Source: Sphingobium herbicidovorans (GTDB taxonomy: Bacteria > Pseudomonadota > Alphaproteobacteria > Sphingomonadales > Sphingomonadaceae). From it: 64,000 bases of DNA. The translations under genes were made by a program, and so were the position numbers. The DNA is taken from NCBI RefSeq assembly GCF_002080435.1, contig NZ_CP020538.1, forward strand, positions 2,537,501 through 2,601,500, written 5' to 3'. The notes under the pieces were generated by a model, which was not told the origin of the DNA, did not search any database, and was given only the letters and a program-made list of their open reading frames with translations. Below are positions 2,190 to 59,733 of this stretch, in pieces (position 1 is the first letter of the stretch; each line of letters begins with the position of its first letter).

Positions 2190-3487
2190 GCGGCCTCCAA
2201 CGCTTCGACACGGGCAGTAAGGTCCGCGATCAGCGCGTCCTTTTCCTTGTCGAGTTCACGCAGGCCCCAGCTGAGCAGCAAATCCAGTTGGTCAGTCCGC
2301 AGGCCGAAGCGGTTCCCTGCTTCGCGTTCGATGGTCTCACGTGTGCCCGTCTGCAGCGGCTTGCCGTCAGCGTCGAGCAGCACTTCGGAAAAGATGGGCT
2401 CCTGCCGCACCGCTTCGTCCCACTGGTCGAAGCAGAGCCAGGCTGGCGGCGGCGGTCCCTCCCAATCGGGATCAGGCCGCTGCTCAGCCCCGGTGCCAAT
2501 GAGCGGAGCGCACAGGCCCTCACCGGCGACGATGGCCCATACGGCCTGCGCGCGGACACCGAAGTGCCAGCGCGCGCCGTCCGCGCCCTTCTCCTCGATT
2601 GACTCCAGAAACTGAAACCAGCCCAGCTCGTCAAGGATTGCGCAGGCAATCCGCAGATACTTCGCGCGATCATCCGCATGGATTCCGATCCACGACTTCT
2701 CGCGCTCGTCCGAGGTGTTGATCGAACCTGTCGCAGCGTAAATCACGGATGGCCTGTTTGATGCACCGCCGACAGAATAGGCATTATCCGCAATGGGATA
2801 GAAATGACCGGACGACGATATCCGCCACCGCTCTGAGCCGTTCACCCAGAATGACAGTTTTCCGCCGCCACGATTGGCATTGATAATCAGACCGTTCGCG
2901 GCGCCGACCTCATTCGTCGTGGAGATGAACCCGCCCGCGTTTCCATCGGCCGAGAAAATGCACATGGCGTTATTGCTGGAAGCGGCACCGACAACGTCCA
3001 GCCGGGCGGACGACGAACTGACAACGCCGATCGTCACGGACCCGTCAGCATGCAGCTTGATGCGCTCCACGCCGCCCGTAACCAGCGCCATGGCATCTGT
3101 GCCAGCGCGATAGATGCCGGTATCCTCATCGCCACTGAAGCGAAATGCGGGCGTGCCGACGCTGCCCCCGGGGAAGATGCCTTGTCCCACGCCATCCCTG
3201 ACCGTAGCAAAGGACAGCACCAGGGCGGCCGCTTGCGTGGCCAGGTCGCGCAGATAGCCCTGCACCGGCATGATGCGATAGGCCTGACCCGATGCCGTCG
3301 TGCCGACATAGTTGGTCCGCAGCGTGATCGATGTCGCCGAGTTGACCGACAATATCTCATAGGGAATGCCGTTCGGGCCGACGAAGGCTTGCCCGGCATC
3401 GACATTGCCGACCCAGCCCGTGCCGGAGCCGGTGACCGTGGGGCTGTTGTTGGTGACGGCGACCGTCCCCGTATTATACCAAGGCAA
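2186..3487 (-). CDS. tail fibre with C-terminal S74 intramolecular chaperone
   Basis: A 433-aa protein. Residues 1-85 resemble the N-terminal adaptor of phage fibres; residues 100-255 are Gly/Ser-rich beta-type sequence (FSGDEDTGIY…, SGHFYPIADNAYSVGG). From about residue 257 (INTSDEREK) there is a peptidase S74/endosialidase-chaperone domain, in which Ser259 and Lys264 keep the Ser-x4-Lys spacing of the self-cleavage dyad. A short C-terminal coiled coil (DALIADLTARVEALEA) ends it. It should form the trimeric host-binding fibre, with the chaperone released after folding. Translation starts at TTG 3487, behind GGGAG; an in-frame TGA lies just upstream. Confidence 0.85.
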   Translation of the reverse strand: MPWYNTGTVAVTNNSPTVTGSGTGWVGNVDAGQAFVGPNGIPYEILSVNSATSITLRTNYVGTTASGQAYRIMPVQGYLRDLATQAAALVLSFATVRDGVGQGIFPGGSVGTPAFRFSGDEDTGIYRAGTDAMALVTGGVERIKLHADGSVTIGVVSSSSARLDVVGAASSNNAMCIFSADGNAGGFISTTNEVGAANGLIINANRGGGKLSFWVNGSERWRISSSGHFYPIADNAYSVGGASNRPSVIYAATGSINTSDEREKSWIGIHADDRAKYLRIACAILDELGWFQFLESIEEKGADGARWHFGVRAQAVWAIVAGEGLCAPLIGTGAEQRPDPDWEGPPPPAWLCFDQWDEAVRQEPIFSEVLLDADGKPLQTGTRETIEREAGNRFGLRTDQLDLLLSWGLRELDKEKDALIADLTARVEALEAA

Positions 3488-3583
3488 TAGTCATCTCCCA
3501 TGGGCGTGCATGTCCGCGCGCATCCACGCGCAGATGATGAAGGTCGTCAGGTCAGGTGGTCGGACTGGATCGAGGCTAAGGCC

Positions 3584-4327
3584 TCACCACTCCGGAACGT
3601 GCGTCATGTCGGCGATGATGACCGCGTAGGAGCGATCGACGGAATCCTGATGGTCGTAAGCCATGTCCGGGAAGGCGTAGTCGTCATCATCCATGTAGGA
3701 CATGTCGATCGACGTCAGCACACCGCCAGACAGTCTCAGGCCCATGATCTCGCGCCGGATGCGGTAGAAGCGCAGATTGGAGCCGATCCCGTCATAGGCG
3801 CGGTCATCATCCATGCGCGTACGGCCAGCCCATTTGAAGCAGCAGAAGCCCCACTTGCGATTGGTCGGCAGCGACAGGTTGATCGGGTTTGCGACATAGT
3901 CGCTGCCGGTCAGCACCTGATGCACCCGCAGGTAACGATAGCCGGAATAATAGGTAATGACGCCCGCGGCTGTCCTGATGATACGACCCCATTTGTTGAT
4001 GGGTGTGGGCGGCGGCAGGGGAACGTCAAACACGGCGAGCTTAGACGTGCTACCACGCGCCTTGTTCGTCACCAGGAATCCGCTGTCGCTCAGGCCGGTG
4101 TAAGCATCGGCTGAGAAGAAAACGAGCGGCGTCTCGGGCGAGCCTGGCGAGGGCGCGTCTATATAACTGTATCCGTCTTTCGGATATTCGGTGAAGGTCT
4201 GATAGCTGCCCTTGTCAGGAGAACCCGTGGACGCGGTCTCCACGGCGCGAAGCATCAGGTTGCGGTAGAATTGGTCGATCTGCACCGCGCCGGAGCTTCC
4301 CAATATCCTATAGCCGTGCGGCATCAA
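3584..4327 (-). CDS. hypothetical phage tail-tip protein
   Basis: A 247-aa protein rich in Tyr, Asp and beta-type sequence (MMPHGYRILGSSG…; KWGRIIRTAAG; MSYMDDDDYAFPDMAYDH). It has no membrane segment. It overlaps the preceding 109-aa gene at ATGA and sits between the J-like protein and the fibre, so a virion tail-tip or receptor-binding role is likely. No family is recognised. The 97 bp between this gene and the fibre hold no clear signal apart from the fibre's ribosome site and a short GAGGC/GCCTC dyad. Confidence 0.65.
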   Translation of the reverse strand: MMPHGYRILGSSGAVQIDQFYRNLMLRAVETASTGSPDKGSYQTFTEYPKDGYSYIDAPSPGSPETPLVFFSADAYTGLSDSGFLVTNKARGSTSKLAVFDVPLPPPTPINKWGRIIRTAAGVITYYSGYRYLRVHQVLTGSDYVANPINLSLPTNRKWGFCCFKWAGRTRMDDDRAYDGIGSNLRFYRIRREIMGLRLSGGVLTSIDMSYMDDDDYAFPDMAYDHQDSVDRSYAVIIADMTHVPEW

Positions 4328-54661: not shown

Positions 54662-55315
54662 GCAGCATCGCCGCTGGCTGCCCGAGGCGCTTCTCTAGCG
54701 GCTAGGGTGTCAGGTCCTGCTAAGACATAATTCGGATAGGCTTATATAAAAATCCTACAAATGCTCGCCAAGATTAATCACGGGCAAGTATCTAGGCTTG
54801 GCTACAATTGATTTCACGCGGCGAATCATGAAAATGCCGCTACGGTAGCGGGGAAACATCGGCGTGGAGAGGGTGCATAGGAAGTTATCGCTGACTGCTG
54901 GATCATAGGTAGGCCAGGTGACATTCGCTGATGCCGTCAGGAGATCGACGGCACTGGCATGCTTTGGTTTAGCGCCCACATCAGCTCGATAAGTCTTTCG
55001 CACTCTTCCACTTGCTCTTCGCCCCGGAGATGTTGGAAGTGCCGCTTCACATGTCGATCCACGTATAGCGACCGTCCAGCGTACGCCATCGTCCATTTCC
55101 CAAAGCGTCTAACCGATCGTTGGGGAACAGGTAATAGAGTTATCTGATCGTGACGCTTATCTTTTTGAATGCTAGCCATGATCTCATCTACTGAGCTGCC
55201 CGGTCCTTCCAGCAACTGCGCGAACCGTGCACCAGTATAAATCAGAGATCCTGACCTGCCCCCCGCTGGCTCCCTCGATTTGATGTAGAGTCTGCCCCAA
55301 CGAAGGAGCAGACGA

Positions 55316-55579
55316 ATGAGGAAGAGCCGTTTCACCGAGGAGCAGATCATCGGCATGATCAAGGAGCAGGAGGCCGGGCTCCCCACGGCGGAGGTTTGCC
55401 GCAAGCATGGGCTGAGCCCGGCGACATTCTACAAGCTGAAGGCCAAGTACGGCGGCCTGGAGGTGTCCGATGCACGGCGGCTGCGCCAGCTGGAGGACGA
55501 GAACGCGAAGCTCAAGCGGTTGCTCGCCGAGAGCGTGCTGGACAACGCGATCCTGAAGGACCTGTTGGGAAAAGTCTGA
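55316..55579 (+). CDS. IS3-family transposase OrfA
   Basis: 87 aa: [87 protein letters not shown]. It has the N-terminal helix-turn-helix that binds the ends and a leucine zipper. It ends after the slippery run G GGA AAA (55567-55573), where -1 slippage makes the full transposase. Confidence 0.94.
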
Positions 55580-56469
55580 CGACGCCAGGCCAGCGACGGG
55601 ACGCAGCGCTCGGCGTGATGCGGGACTACGAGGTCTCGCAGCGCCGGGCTTGCGGGCTGGTTGGCGTCGATCCCAAGACGGTCCGGCGAGAACGTCCGCC
55701 CGACCACGCCGAGATCCGCGAGGAGATGCGCGAGATCGCCGCTGCGCGTCGCCGGTTCGGTTACCGGCGCGTCGGCGTGATGCTCGAACGCAAGGGGCAC
55801 ATCATGAACCACAAGAAGCTCTACCGGCTGTACCGGGAGGAGGGTCTGTCGGTCCGCCGCCGGCGCGGGCGCAAGCGGGCTCGCGGCAGTCGAACGCCGA
55901 TGCCGGTCCCGCTGCGGCCGAACGCCCGCTGGTCGATGGACTTCGTGGCCGATACGTTCGGCGCCTCCCGCCGGCTGCGCATCTTGGCGATCAACGATGA
56001 CTTCTGTCGCGAAAACCTCTGCCTCGTAGGTGACACCAGCATCTCCGGCGTGCGGGTGGCGCGCGAGCTGGACACGCTGGTGCGGCTATATGGCAAACCG
56101 ACTTGCATCGTCAGCGACAACGGGACCGAGTTCACCAGCCGGGCGATCCTGAAATGGGCGAGCGAGAACCGGGTCGAGTGGCACTACATCGATCCCGGCA
56201 AGCCGCAGCAGAATGCGTTCATTGAATCGTTCAATGGGTCGCTGCGCGACGAGCTCTTGAATGAGGAACTGTTCGACAGCCTTGCCGACGCCCGCCGCAA
56301 GCTGGCTGTCTGGCGCTATGACTATAACAACGTCAGACCGCACTCATCCCTGGGGAACCGAACACCGGCACAAGCGCGCCGGGCGTTCCTGCAAAATGGA
56401 AGCGTCCCACCCGGCGCGCTTGTGCCGGTGGGACAGCACGAATATCAAACCGGTGGACTCTCGTTATGA
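55573..56469 (+). CDS. IS3-family transposase OrfB (DDE domain)
   Basis: About 298 aa as the frameshift part of OrfAB (independent start possibly ATG 55618). It has HTH_21 ([24 protein letters not shown]) and the rve/DDE core: MDFVADTF (Asp), [12 protein letters not shown] (Asp), [19 protein letters not shown] (Glu). The C-terminal [19 protein letters not shown] is typical. No frame damage visible. Confidence 0.94.
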
Positions 56470-56609
56470 CCGCGGGACCAGCGGGGGGCAGGTCAATCCG
56501 CTCACATCCATTATGCCATTTCGGATTCGAGCGCTTTTTACCATGGAGTTTACCTCCTCCTCGGCGATTTCGCCGGGGACAAGCGACCGACTGACATATA
56601 AAATGGACT

Positions 56610-58409
56610 TCACCGTGGGCTCCTTGGATCATTGGGGAACAACAGCCTACCGGGCTGATCCTGCTTCAGCAAAGAGACGACCCATTGAGATGTTTTTGCT
56701 GGTGCGTACAAAAATCCCTGCCCAAAGTTGCATCCCATGGCGACCACGGCGTCATGCTGAGCGGGCGTTTCGATCCCTTCTGCTACCGACTTCACGCCCA
56801 GGTTACGGCCTAAATTGACCAGAGCCGCCACGATTGCAGTATCGTCCGGGCTGATGTGGATGTTTTTAATAAATGATTGGTCGATCTTGATGATATCGAC
56901 AGGAAATTGCTTGAGGTGGGACAAGGACGCGTAGCCAGTTCCGAAATCGTCCAAGGCGATTGATATTCCTTCTTCGCTGAGCAACTGAAGTGCTTCGTCC
57001 ACATGTTCGGCGCCCCGCCCCAGGAACACGGTTTCTCTCACTTCTACCTGTATTCGAGAAGGAGGAATGCCGCTGCGATGAAGCCGACCCAAAAGGCGCT
57101 CTGCGAAGCCGCTGTCGCTTAAGTCTGCTGCCGAAATGTTGATCGCGACGTGACCATAAGGCAGGCCCTCCCTCTGCCAGGCGCAGATGTCGTCCAGCAC
57201 GCTGCTTATGATGCGTTCACTGATCGCTGATGCTAGCGTGGGTTCCTCGAGCGCGGCCGAGATTGCTTGCGGGGAATTGATCTTGCCAGCCGGCGAGCGC
57301 CACCGAAGCAGGGCTTCGAAACCAGCCACAGCATGAGTGAGAAAGCACAGCTTGGGTTGGTAATGTGGCTCTATGCGTCCCCCGGACAAAGCCGTCCGAG
57401 CCACGTTGATCATGGATGCATCGATTTGCAGCTTCTGGCGAAGCTCGTTCCTGAATATGCTGAGGGAGCCGAGACGCAGGCGCTTCGCGTCATAAAGCGC
57501 AATATCGGCTGCTTTGAAAAGTTCTGAACTTGAACGTCCGTGGCGAGGGAATGTGGCTGCGCCGATGCTGGCTTGGCAATCGACAGATCGATCTTTGAAG
57601 CTGAAAGGCGAACTCAGGGCTGAGAAAATCTTCCGGCTTAGCGCCTCAAGGTCCTCCTTCGTGTTCGCCGCCGTCAACACCGCGAACTCGTCGCCACCCA
57701 GCCGGGCGGCAAAGTTCGGACGAACAGCGTTGTTCAGCCGAACCGCAACATTGCGGAGCAGCGCGTCTCCTGCATCGTGGCCCAGAGTATCATTGATATA
57801 TTTGAAGTTATCCAGATCACAAAGCAGCATAGAAAATCCGCCGCCGCTGTGCTTTCGAGCCTTTACTCGCTTTTCTATTTCTTCCTGGAAAGCGGCACGA
57901 TTAGGCAGCCCCGTGACCGCATCCTCAAAAGACAGGCGACGCAGTCTCGCTTCCGCTTCTTTCCTGCCCGTAATGTCCCGCAATACGACGAGTACGTACC
58001 AGTCCAGCCCATGGATTACGCGTGTCGCTTCCACTTCACGCCAAGCGCTTCGTAGGTCTGGTGAAGGTGATTTAAACTCTACTTCGATTTGATTGCACTG
58101 CTCGACCGATAGGAGTGACTGCACCACGTTGATAAGTTCGGAAGGCGCCATATCATGCAGAGACGAACCCGGCAGTTTTGATGGATCATTGCGAAAAAAA
58201 GAACCGCAGCGATCATTGAAGCGGACCACGTGCCATGCCGAATCGAGCAGGAACGCCGCGTGCGGGGACTGGCTCACCATCTCACCAAGGAGCGAAACAG
58301 CCATCGTTTCGCAGGAACGCGGCCTTATGGCGCCGGGGTTCTGTTCCGAATCGCCAGGCGAGAGTGGTTCTGAAGCGAGGACGCCGGCGAAATGCTTATT
58401 GTGCAGCAT
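56610..58409 (-). CDS. PAS-GGDEF-EAL c-di-GMP signalling protein
   Basis: A 599-aa protein (ATG 58409, GAGGA upstream; TTG 58412 adds one residue). It has a PAS domain (about 40-150, SQSPHAAFLLDSAWHVVRFNDRC… VLRDITGRKEAEARL), GGDEF (about 160-320) with LGGDEF intact but no RxxD inhibition site just before it, and EAL (about 335-590) with FEALLRW, AINISAADL, IALDDFGTGYASL, IKIDQSFI and AEGIETPAQ. Both cyclase and phosphodiesterase residues are present. Its stop overlaps the BLUF start, and it would have worked with that light sensor. Confidence 0.92.
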   Translation of the reverse strand: MLHNKHFAGVLASEPLSPGDSEQNPGAIRPRSCETMAVSLLGEMVSQSPHAAFLLDSAWHVVRFNDRCGSFFRNDPSKLPGSSLHDMAPSELINVVQSLLSVEQCNQIEVEFKSPSPDLRSAWREVEATRVIHGLDWYVLVVLRDITGRKEAEARLRRLSFEDAVTGLPNRAAFQEEIEKRVKARKHSGGGFSMLLCDLDNFKYINDTLGHDAGDALLRNVAVRLNNAVRPNFAARLGGDEFAVLTAANTKEDLEALSRKIFSALSSPFSFKDRSVDCQASIGAATFPRHGRSSSELFKAADIALYDAKRLRLGSLSIFRNELRQKLQIDASMINVARTALSGGRIEPHYQPKLCFLTHAVAGFEALLRWRSPAGKINSPQAISAALEEPTLASAISERIISSVLDDICAWQREGLPYGHVAINISAADLSDSGFAERLLGRLHRSGIPPSRIQVEVRETVFLGRGAEHVDEALQLLSEEGISIALDDFGTGYASLSHLKQFPVDIIKIDQSFIKNIHISPDDTAIVAALVNLGRNLGVKSVAEGIETPAQHDAVVAMGCNFGQGFLYAPAKTSQWVVSLLKQDQPGRLLFPNDPRSPR

Positions 58410-58848
58410 CAACGCCGTCCTCAGAAGTGATGAATTCTACGACGATACCTTCCGCACGACCAGCGTAAACGGGATGAGCGCGAAATTCAGCGTTAAATCG
58501 CTGATAATTCCCGCGTGCATCTGCTAGTCGGCATTGGACACATTGACTTTCCTGAGTAGAGAATAAAGCCGCGGCCGCGCGATTCATTGATCTAATATCG
58601 TCGTGGTGAAGCGAACTATACTCATTGAATAAGCCGTGCTCAAAGAAGTTCGTGCCGGTAAATTCAATCCATTCTGAGTTGAAAATCTTCATCCTGCCAT
58701 CTTGGCTTGACCACCAGGCTTTGTTTGGCAGGGCATCCAAATGCGCTCGCAACAGAGCGTATGCCGGCCTTCCAAGCTGCAAGGGCTCGTGTTCTTGCAG
58801 CCCGCACATTCTGGTGGACCGGAACTGCTTGGAGCATATGAATGACAT
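58396..58848 (-). CDS. PAS-domain protein, first gene of the sensory operon
   Basis: A 150-aa protein with one PAS fold (about 30-140: ALLRAHLDALPNKAWWSSQDGRMKIFNSEWIEFTGTNFFEHGLFNEYSSLHHDDIRSMNRAAAALFSTQ…RLADARGNYQRFNAEFRAHPVYAG). ATG 58848 has GGGAGGAG upstream. It overlaps the GGDEF-EAL gene by 14 bp. Without an output domain, it probably passes a signal to its neighbours. Confidence 0.78.
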   Translation of the reverse strand: MSFICSKQFRSTRMCGLQEHEPLQLGRPAYALLRAHLDALPNKAWWSSQDGRMKIFNSEWIEFTGTNFFEHGLFNEYSSLHHDDIRSMNRAAAALFSTQESQCVQCRLADARGNYQRFNAEFRAHPVYAGRAEGIVVEFITSEDGVDAAQ

Positions 58849-59073
58849 AGGCTCTCCTCCCCAAAGGCTTTTTTCTGTGCAAGGAAGAATATGCTCGGTG
58901 AGTAAACTTTGGCCTGAAGCTGCTCTTCGGAGAACCCGTACGTGTTTACCGCAACCCGTCTCATTTGGCTGGTTTATCAACAGAAAATGTGAAAGAGTCC
59001 CGGCAAGTAGCTAGGCATCCAGGACAGCGGTCGGGTCAACCAAGCGCACTAGCCTGTTGATGCGAGATCACAC

Positions 59074-59733
59074 GTGACCTGTAATTACGCTTATATCGTA
59101 GACGCTGACAAGGCGTCTCGCCTCGATCTTTACCGCAGATTAGGCGACTTCGAATTGCAGACGCGGTCGTTTATGGCGCATGCCGATTTTCTTGAAGATT
59201 GCGTCAACCTGGCGCCGGGGCTGGTCTTCATGGACGTTGGCAACGGCACTGAAAATGGCTTCGACATCATCGAAGCCGTGGCCAGGACCGCGATAGCGTC
59301 GCCTATCATCGCGATGACCCAATTCGCTGACGTTTATATCGCCGTTGCTGCCATTCGGCGCGGAGCAACCGATTTTCTGGTCAAGCCGATTTCCGACGAG
59401 GAACTGAGCAGTGTGGTTGAAGGCTGCCTGGAAATCTTGTCCAAACGACGCGTGGTGGCGGATCAAATGCAGCAGGACAGGGCTTTGCTGTCCCGCCTGA
59501 CTTGCAGGGAGGTTGAGGTTCTCCGCCTCGTTGCCGAGGGGGACGGGAACAAGCAAATCGCAGATCGGCTTGGGGTGAGCGTACGAACCGTTGAGACCCA
59601 TCGAGCGACTATCGCCAAGAAGTTGAATGTAGTTAATTCAGTGGCAGCGGTGGCCCTTCTGTCGAGGTATGAAGCGGCAAAATCCGCTCAGGGCGCGCGG
59701 ATCCTGATTGCTGCGGGCAAGGAGTCAGGGTGA
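59074..59733 (+). CDS. FixJ/NarL-family response regulator
   Basis: A 219-aa regulator. The receiver (about 5-120) has YIVDADK (acidic pocket), LVFMDVGNG with phospho-acceptor Asp54, IIAMTQFADV (switch Thr) and FLVKPISDEEL (Lys). The LuxR-type HTH follows: SRLTCREVEVLRLVAEGDGNKQIADRLGVSVRTVETHRATIAKKLNV. It starts at GTG 59074. It is divergent from the PAS/GGDEF-EAL/BLUF operon and probably linked to it in signalling; no histidine kinase is adjacent. Confidence 0.93.
   Translation: MTCNYAYIVDADKASRLDLYRRLGDFELQTRSFMAHADFLEDCVNLAPGLVFMDVGNGTENGFDIIEAVARTAIASPIIAMTQFADVYIAVAAIRRGATDFLVKPISDEELSSVVEGCLEILSKRRVVADQMQQDRALLSRLTCREVEVLRLVAEGDGNKQIADRLGVSVRTVETHRATIAKKLNVVNSVAAVALLSRYEAAKSAQGARILIAAGKESG

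Follow-up and report, generated by a model that had tools for sequence, protein, structure and literature searches.

The window analysed here is a stretch of 64,000 nucleotides from Sphingobium herbicidovorans, and all positions below are given in its coordinates. On its minus strand, a BLUF gene of 142 codons is split by an IS3-family insertion sequence (IS), with the two pieces of the gene lying on either side of the element (Table 1). The first 18 bases of the two IS ends agree as an inverted repeat, and the tetranucleotide ATCC is found on both sides of the element. The broken gene is likely the last of an operon, preceded by a gene for a GGDEF-EAL protein, and a response regulator gene diverges from this operon.

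Table 1. Features of the interrupted BLUF locus, ordered by position in the window
Feature	Position	Strand	Remarks
BLUF gene, 3' piece	54937..55251	-	remaining codons, including the retained duplicate; PF04940, 1.2e-14
Predicted chimera P0001, 137 aa	54937..55350	-	IS-antisense N-terminus, then BLUF C-terminal part
Target duplication ATCC, left copy	55248..55251	none	
IS3-family insertion sequence	55252..56495	+	1244 bp
Left terminal inverted repeat	55252..55269	+	18 bp
IS orfA, 87 aa	55316..55579	+	HTH_Tnp_1, PF01527, 4.2e-25
IS orfB frame, 357 aa	55396..56469	+	from the listed TTG; NF033516 match
Product from the BLUF start, 49 aa	56464..56613	-	38 BLUF residues and 11 from the IS
Right terminal inverted repeat	56478..56495	-	18 bp
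Target duplication ATCC, right copy	56496..56499	none	
BLUF gene, 5' piece	56500..56613	-	codons 1-38; GTG start
GGDEF-EAL protein, 600 aa	56610..58412	-	presumed partner enzyme; EAL 1.3e-65, GGDEF 1e-39
AAGGAG, putative ribosome-binding-like site of the BLUF gene	56620..56625	-	read in the sequence
194-aa protein, no Pfam family	58396..58980	-	first gene of the likely operon; overlaps the GGDEF-EAL gene
FixJ/NarL-type response regulator	59074..59733	+	divergent from the operon; Response_reg 3.5e-14, GerE 1.6e-18

The rejoined BLUF gene and its intact counterpart

Joining the two pieces on the minus strand (56613-56500 followed by 55251-54937) gives a frame of 429 nt, or 142 codons, with a single stop at its end and with AAGGAG six bases ahead of the GTG start. 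The rejoined protein matches the BLUF family PF04940 with 78 bits (cut-off 25, 5.9e-22) over positions 3-92 of the 92-position profile. The 3' piece alone scores 54.7 bits (profile 37-92), and the truncated 49-residue 5' product reaches 14.6 bits (0.035, profile 3-38), which is under the family cut-off. Tyr6, Asn32 and Gln50, the flavin switch residues of BLUF domains, are all present in the rejoined protein at columns conserved among relatives: in an alignment of 15 sequences, with the rejoined protein itself left out of the counts, Gln50 never varies, and Tyr6 and Asn32 seldom do. By these features the rejoined gene is assigned to the BLUF family as encoding a full-length protein, for which flavin binding and a photocycle are predicted.

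The same gene is found whole at the same place in Sphingobium subterraneum (locus L004, 7801-8229), where it encodes 142 residues and starts 15 bases past the stop codon of the GGDEF-EAL orthologue. The two proteins share 100 of 142 residues (the GTG counted as Met) and align without a gap at the junction. The order of all four genes, namely the regulator, the 194-residue gene, the GGDEF-EAL gene and the BLUF gene, is kept in this relative, which serves as the intact counterpart for comparison. The empty site can be reconstructed from one ATCC duplicate and this gapless alignment with a 70%-identical relative, in which the target tetranucleotide is not conserved. The sequence-only reading, on which this analysis builds, had described the IS ends, the duplication, the two flanking BLUF pieces, and a GTG-initiated, in-frame protein of 142 residues with an AAGGAG site and the three switch residues. 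Each of these points is borne out, as are the BLUF match of the rejoined translation and the contiguity of the two pieces in a relative.

A protein search with 10 matches revealed no empty allele in this species: the only 100% identity was to P0001 of the window itself, over 74% of the query, and no other match was both full-length and nearly identical; the genome collections searched for sister alleles hold one genome per species. Among the PLSDB plasmids no close BLUF relative was found: the 128 records all have less than 60% identity and none covers 80%.

At the amino acid level, identity to S. subterraneum is 72.2% for the GGDEF-EAL protein, 72.1% for the 3' BLUF piece and 63.2% for the 5' piece, which is short. 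The somewhat higher divergence of the 5' piece would fit a gene that was already non-functional before the IS landed, and two other BLUF genes in the genome could have made it dispensable. We regard such prior decay as quite improbable: neither piece contains a stop or a frameshift, the switch residues are kept, and in the 5' piece dN is well below dS (0.27 versus 1.39, over 38 codons only). For the 3' piece dS is saturated and gives no ratio.

The structure of the S. subterraneum BLUF protein was predicted from a 9-sequence alignment. The model has a mean pLDDT of 72.9 and a pTM of 0.66, and it is poor past residue 80. The segment around the junction comprises a helix (14-34) and a strand (38-43), and the local pLDDT there is about 82-85. 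In this model the insertion, which lies after codon 38, maps to the boundary between helix 1 and strand 2. The best PDB match of this orthologue is the BLUF-family receptor 2byc (1.2e-13), and Slr1694 is matched with 8e-5.

Two frames remain at the locus. Translation from the original start yields the 49-residue stub, and P0001 is predicted to start at an ATG at position 55350, inside the IS and antisense to orfA; inspection of the sequence upstream of this ATG showed no obvious ribosome-binding site. P0001 lacks BLUF residues 1-38, including the true Tyr6 and the Asn32 region. Because the cut parts Tyr6 and Asn32 from Gln50, neither product carries the whole flavin site, and neither alone completes a flavin switch. 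At this locus there is no uninterrupted frame in which Tyr, Asn and Gln occur together. P0001 nevertheless passes the Pfam BLUF cut-off with 56 bits, so that counts of photoreceptor domains would include it despite the lost Tyr6/Asn32 part, which calls for care in annotation.

Both frames exist, and gene prediction lists P0001 among the proteins; the cut separates whole secondary-structure elements, leaving strand 1 and helix 1 on the stub and strands 2-5 with the C-terminal helices on the chimera. One could therefore imagine the 49-residue stub and the 137-residue chimera combining to form a BLUF domain that is split yet functional. The stub, however, has lost strand 2 and gained 11 foreign residues, and the chimera would have to be translated from its antisense start within the IS. 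We know of no natural split BLUF domain, and we consider this assembly extremely unlikely.

The insertion sequence, its copies and the age of the event

The orfB frame matches NF033516, the NCBIfam model of IS3 family transposases, with 229.3 bits (cut-off 160) and contains catalytic-type DDE residues spaced D-58-D-35-E. The IS3 transposase match, the 35-residue second spacing of the DDE residues and the terminal inverted repeats place the element in the IS3 family, and the OrfA/OrfB layout is also like that of this family. The true orfB product is probably an OrfAB fusion generated by a -1 frameshift. The element had been called IS407-type in the sequence-only reading. The family level of that label stands with the NF033516 match, whereas the narrower placement in the IS407 group is tentative, following from the 4-bp target duplication and from the TGACC... 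ends, which resemble those of IS407.

The genome carries four full-length copies of the element, the window copy included. Two of the three other copies are identical to it at all 1244 positions, and the third differs by the deletion of one C near its end. A perfect 4-bp duplication flanks three of the four copies, as expected for the IS407 group, and each has its own tetranucleotide (ATCC in the window, TCAC and TGAA elsewhere). The remaining copy, on contig C2, is without a 4-bp duplication. It occupies positions 2546-3789 of locus L189 (G000:C2:194000-200000), with a glycoside hydrolase 65-type frame on one side and an acyl-CoA dehydrogenase frame on the other, has the flanks GTGAG and TTTGC, and may mark a rearrangement or deletion. 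Among the 94 genomes of the genus, 12 have IS matches at E<=1e-100, the own genome included; the nearest full-length copy in the 93 others is 81% identical, and partial copies reach 90%.

A multi-copy repeat, present here in four places, can be misplaced by assembly, and the IS could in principle be carried by just a fraction of the cells. An artefact or a mixed population of this kind is very unlikely, since the perfect ATCC duplication occurs at this copy alone, the insertion is located deep in a 2.9-Mb contig of a 5-contig, 4.24-Mb assembly, and the order of the flanks is that of S. subterraneum.

The near-identity of four copies in one genome suggests a recent spread of the element; gene conversion is another way in which the copies could have stayed alike. 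The insertion into the BLUF gene had been called recent in the sequence-only reading since the flanking frames are undamaged, which proves a weak basis for dating. In the two BLUF pieces, 58 of 1278 possible single substitutions (4.5%) create a stop, and with an indel rate assumed at one tenth, the expected share of frames still intact is 54% at a neutral divergence of 1% and 4% at 5%. The undamaged frame argues only against an old insertion and dates the event poorly; the near-identical IS copies say more about recency, in an indirect manner. Substitution rates yielded no date: measured against the single close relative, dS comes to about 1.3-1.4 or is saturated.

It had also been proposed that clean excision would restore the gene. 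This holds on paper, as the rejoined frame attests, and is unlikely to occur in nature: copy-out/paste-in elements should rarely be lost exactly, together with one duplicate. IS3-family elements are reported to transpose via figure-of-eight and minicircle intermediates (PMC3219604). A literature search for precise excision of IS407 or IS3-family elements with a 4-bp duplication returned nothing.

The partner enzyme and the loss of a light input

The GGDEF-EAL gene upstream of the BLUF gene, a neighbour that the sequence-only reading had passed over, has an open frame with the motifs GGDEF, EALLRW and DDFG, and its product shows a weak N-terminal PAS match (0.0033, under the cut-off). Its TGA stop overlaps the GTG start of the BLUF gene as GTGA, and the insertion should therefore spare the enzyme gene. 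The 194-residue protein encoded first in the likely operon matches no Pfam family at E<=0.001 or at E<=0.1; S. subterraneum has a homologue in the corresponding position, with 47.6% identity across 164 codons, and the protein could be an unrecognised sensor domain. The orthologue of the FixJ/NarL-type regulator, also at the same place in that species, is 77.9% identical at the amino acid level.

This arrangement recalls PapB and PapA of Rhodopseudomonas palustris. According to a review, PapB is a short BLUF protein that joins PapA, a solo EAL protein, in a heterotetrameric complex and reduces the formation of biofilm under blue light (PMC8846402). In both cases a short BLUF protein stands alone and the EAL protein has a gene of its own; in the window the two genes are adjacent. 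They differ in that PapA is a solo EAL protein whereas the partner here is a 600-residue GGDEF-EAL protein with a weak PAS match, and in that the sensor gene of this strain is broken. Because the partner is a GGDEF-EAL protein, the locus is likened to PapA/PapB and not filed as a member of that system. In BlrP1 of Klebsiella pneumoniae, which is also among the structure-search matches of the S. subterraneum BLUF orthologue, and in other fused BLUF-EAL proteins, the same combination of BLUF domain and EAL output is carried by one polypeptide rather than by two genes. PixD (Slr1694), BlrB and other short BLUF proteins have the same domain as the protein here and other partners. Short proteins make up 64% of BLUF proteins in a review that lists two of them in Sphingobium xenophagum (PMC4844311).

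By analogy with PapB-PapA, the intact BLUF protein would bind its GGDEF-EAL neighbour and set c-di-GMP turnover by light; such control by contact is suggested by the gene order. An active-looking copy of the IS3-family element has inserted into the stand-alone sensor gene and inactivated it, and in this strain the enzyme would run without BLUF input on whatever else controls it. That the IS inactivated the sensor and left an intact GGDEF-EAL partner without its light input is, in our judgement, very probable. Probably one light-controlled switch is left here without a sensor, and the locus illustrates how the last gene of an operon, encoding a light sensor, can be lost with the c-di-GMP enzyme remaining intact.

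The claim of the sequence-only reading that the strain has lost blue-light input was too broad. Two other BLUF genes (C1:11101-11376 and C2:172969-173241), each of which has Tyr, Asn and Gln at the positions aligned with the switch residues, and one gene with a PHY domain (phytochrome-type, in an 899-codon frame) remain in the genome; one input line has therefore been lost, and not blue-light sensing as such. The GAF profile hits nine places, all unspecific. A search of the genome for LOV proteins with one degenerate motif pattern, which deviating LOV proteins would escape, gave no match.

Taken by itself, a gene broken by an IS is ordinary gene loss and of modest interest. Loss of a BLUF gene is already known elsewhere, because BlsA is reported to have been lost in several A. 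baumannii strains (PMC9948694), and in Acinetobacter an IS has been reported ahead of a BLUF locus, on its upstream side (PMC9020721). Searches of the literature for BLUF together with insertion sequences, for BLUF in Sphingobium and for BLUF with GGDEF-EAL operons returned no title on this locus.

Coupled GGDEF-EAL/BLUF pairs recur elsewhere in the family, at no fewer than five loci (L004, L153, L242, L243 and L244). Among the genus BLUF loci with several kb of flank, a GGDEF/EAL-type gene lies immediately upstream on the same strand in 2 of 37 (S. subterraneum and L153); in this set L171 and L175 were without a BLUF match in that scan, and L155, where the GGDEF/EAL-type gene ends 585 bases off, was left uncounted. 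None of 30 further short loci of the genus, whose flanks reach about 1.5 kb at most and one of which is the same place as a long locus, has such a neighbour. In other genera of the family the neighbour is present at 3 of 20 BLUF loci, mostly highest matches, and at all three (L242, L243 and L244), as at L153, the BLUF gene starts within a few bases of the GGDEF/EAL stop. The enzyme frame of L153 is without the GGDEF motif, and the paired enzymes accordingly differ in their cyclase half. As the counts cover fetched BLUF loci, the pairing is a recurrent yet minority arrangement among these.

We tentatively propose, at somewhat less than even chance, that sphingomonads possess a recurring two-gene light/c-di-GMP switch, made of a GGDEF-EAL protein and a translationally coupled stand-alone BLUF protein, and that this strain represents a natural knock-out of the sensor in which the enzyme has been spared. 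Such a switch would be unlike the fused BLUF-EAL proteins and unlike PapA with its solo EAL domain.

A module of response regulator and BLUF gene shared across the genus was also considered and set aside, there being no conserved gene between the two on the BLUF strand comparable to the operon here. A regulator frame is found no more than a few kb from many of the fetched genus BLUF genes, and many stand-alone BLUF genes, among them those of L168 on contig C2 of this genome and of several genus loci, lie at most about 1 kb from a response-regulator frame on the opposite strand.
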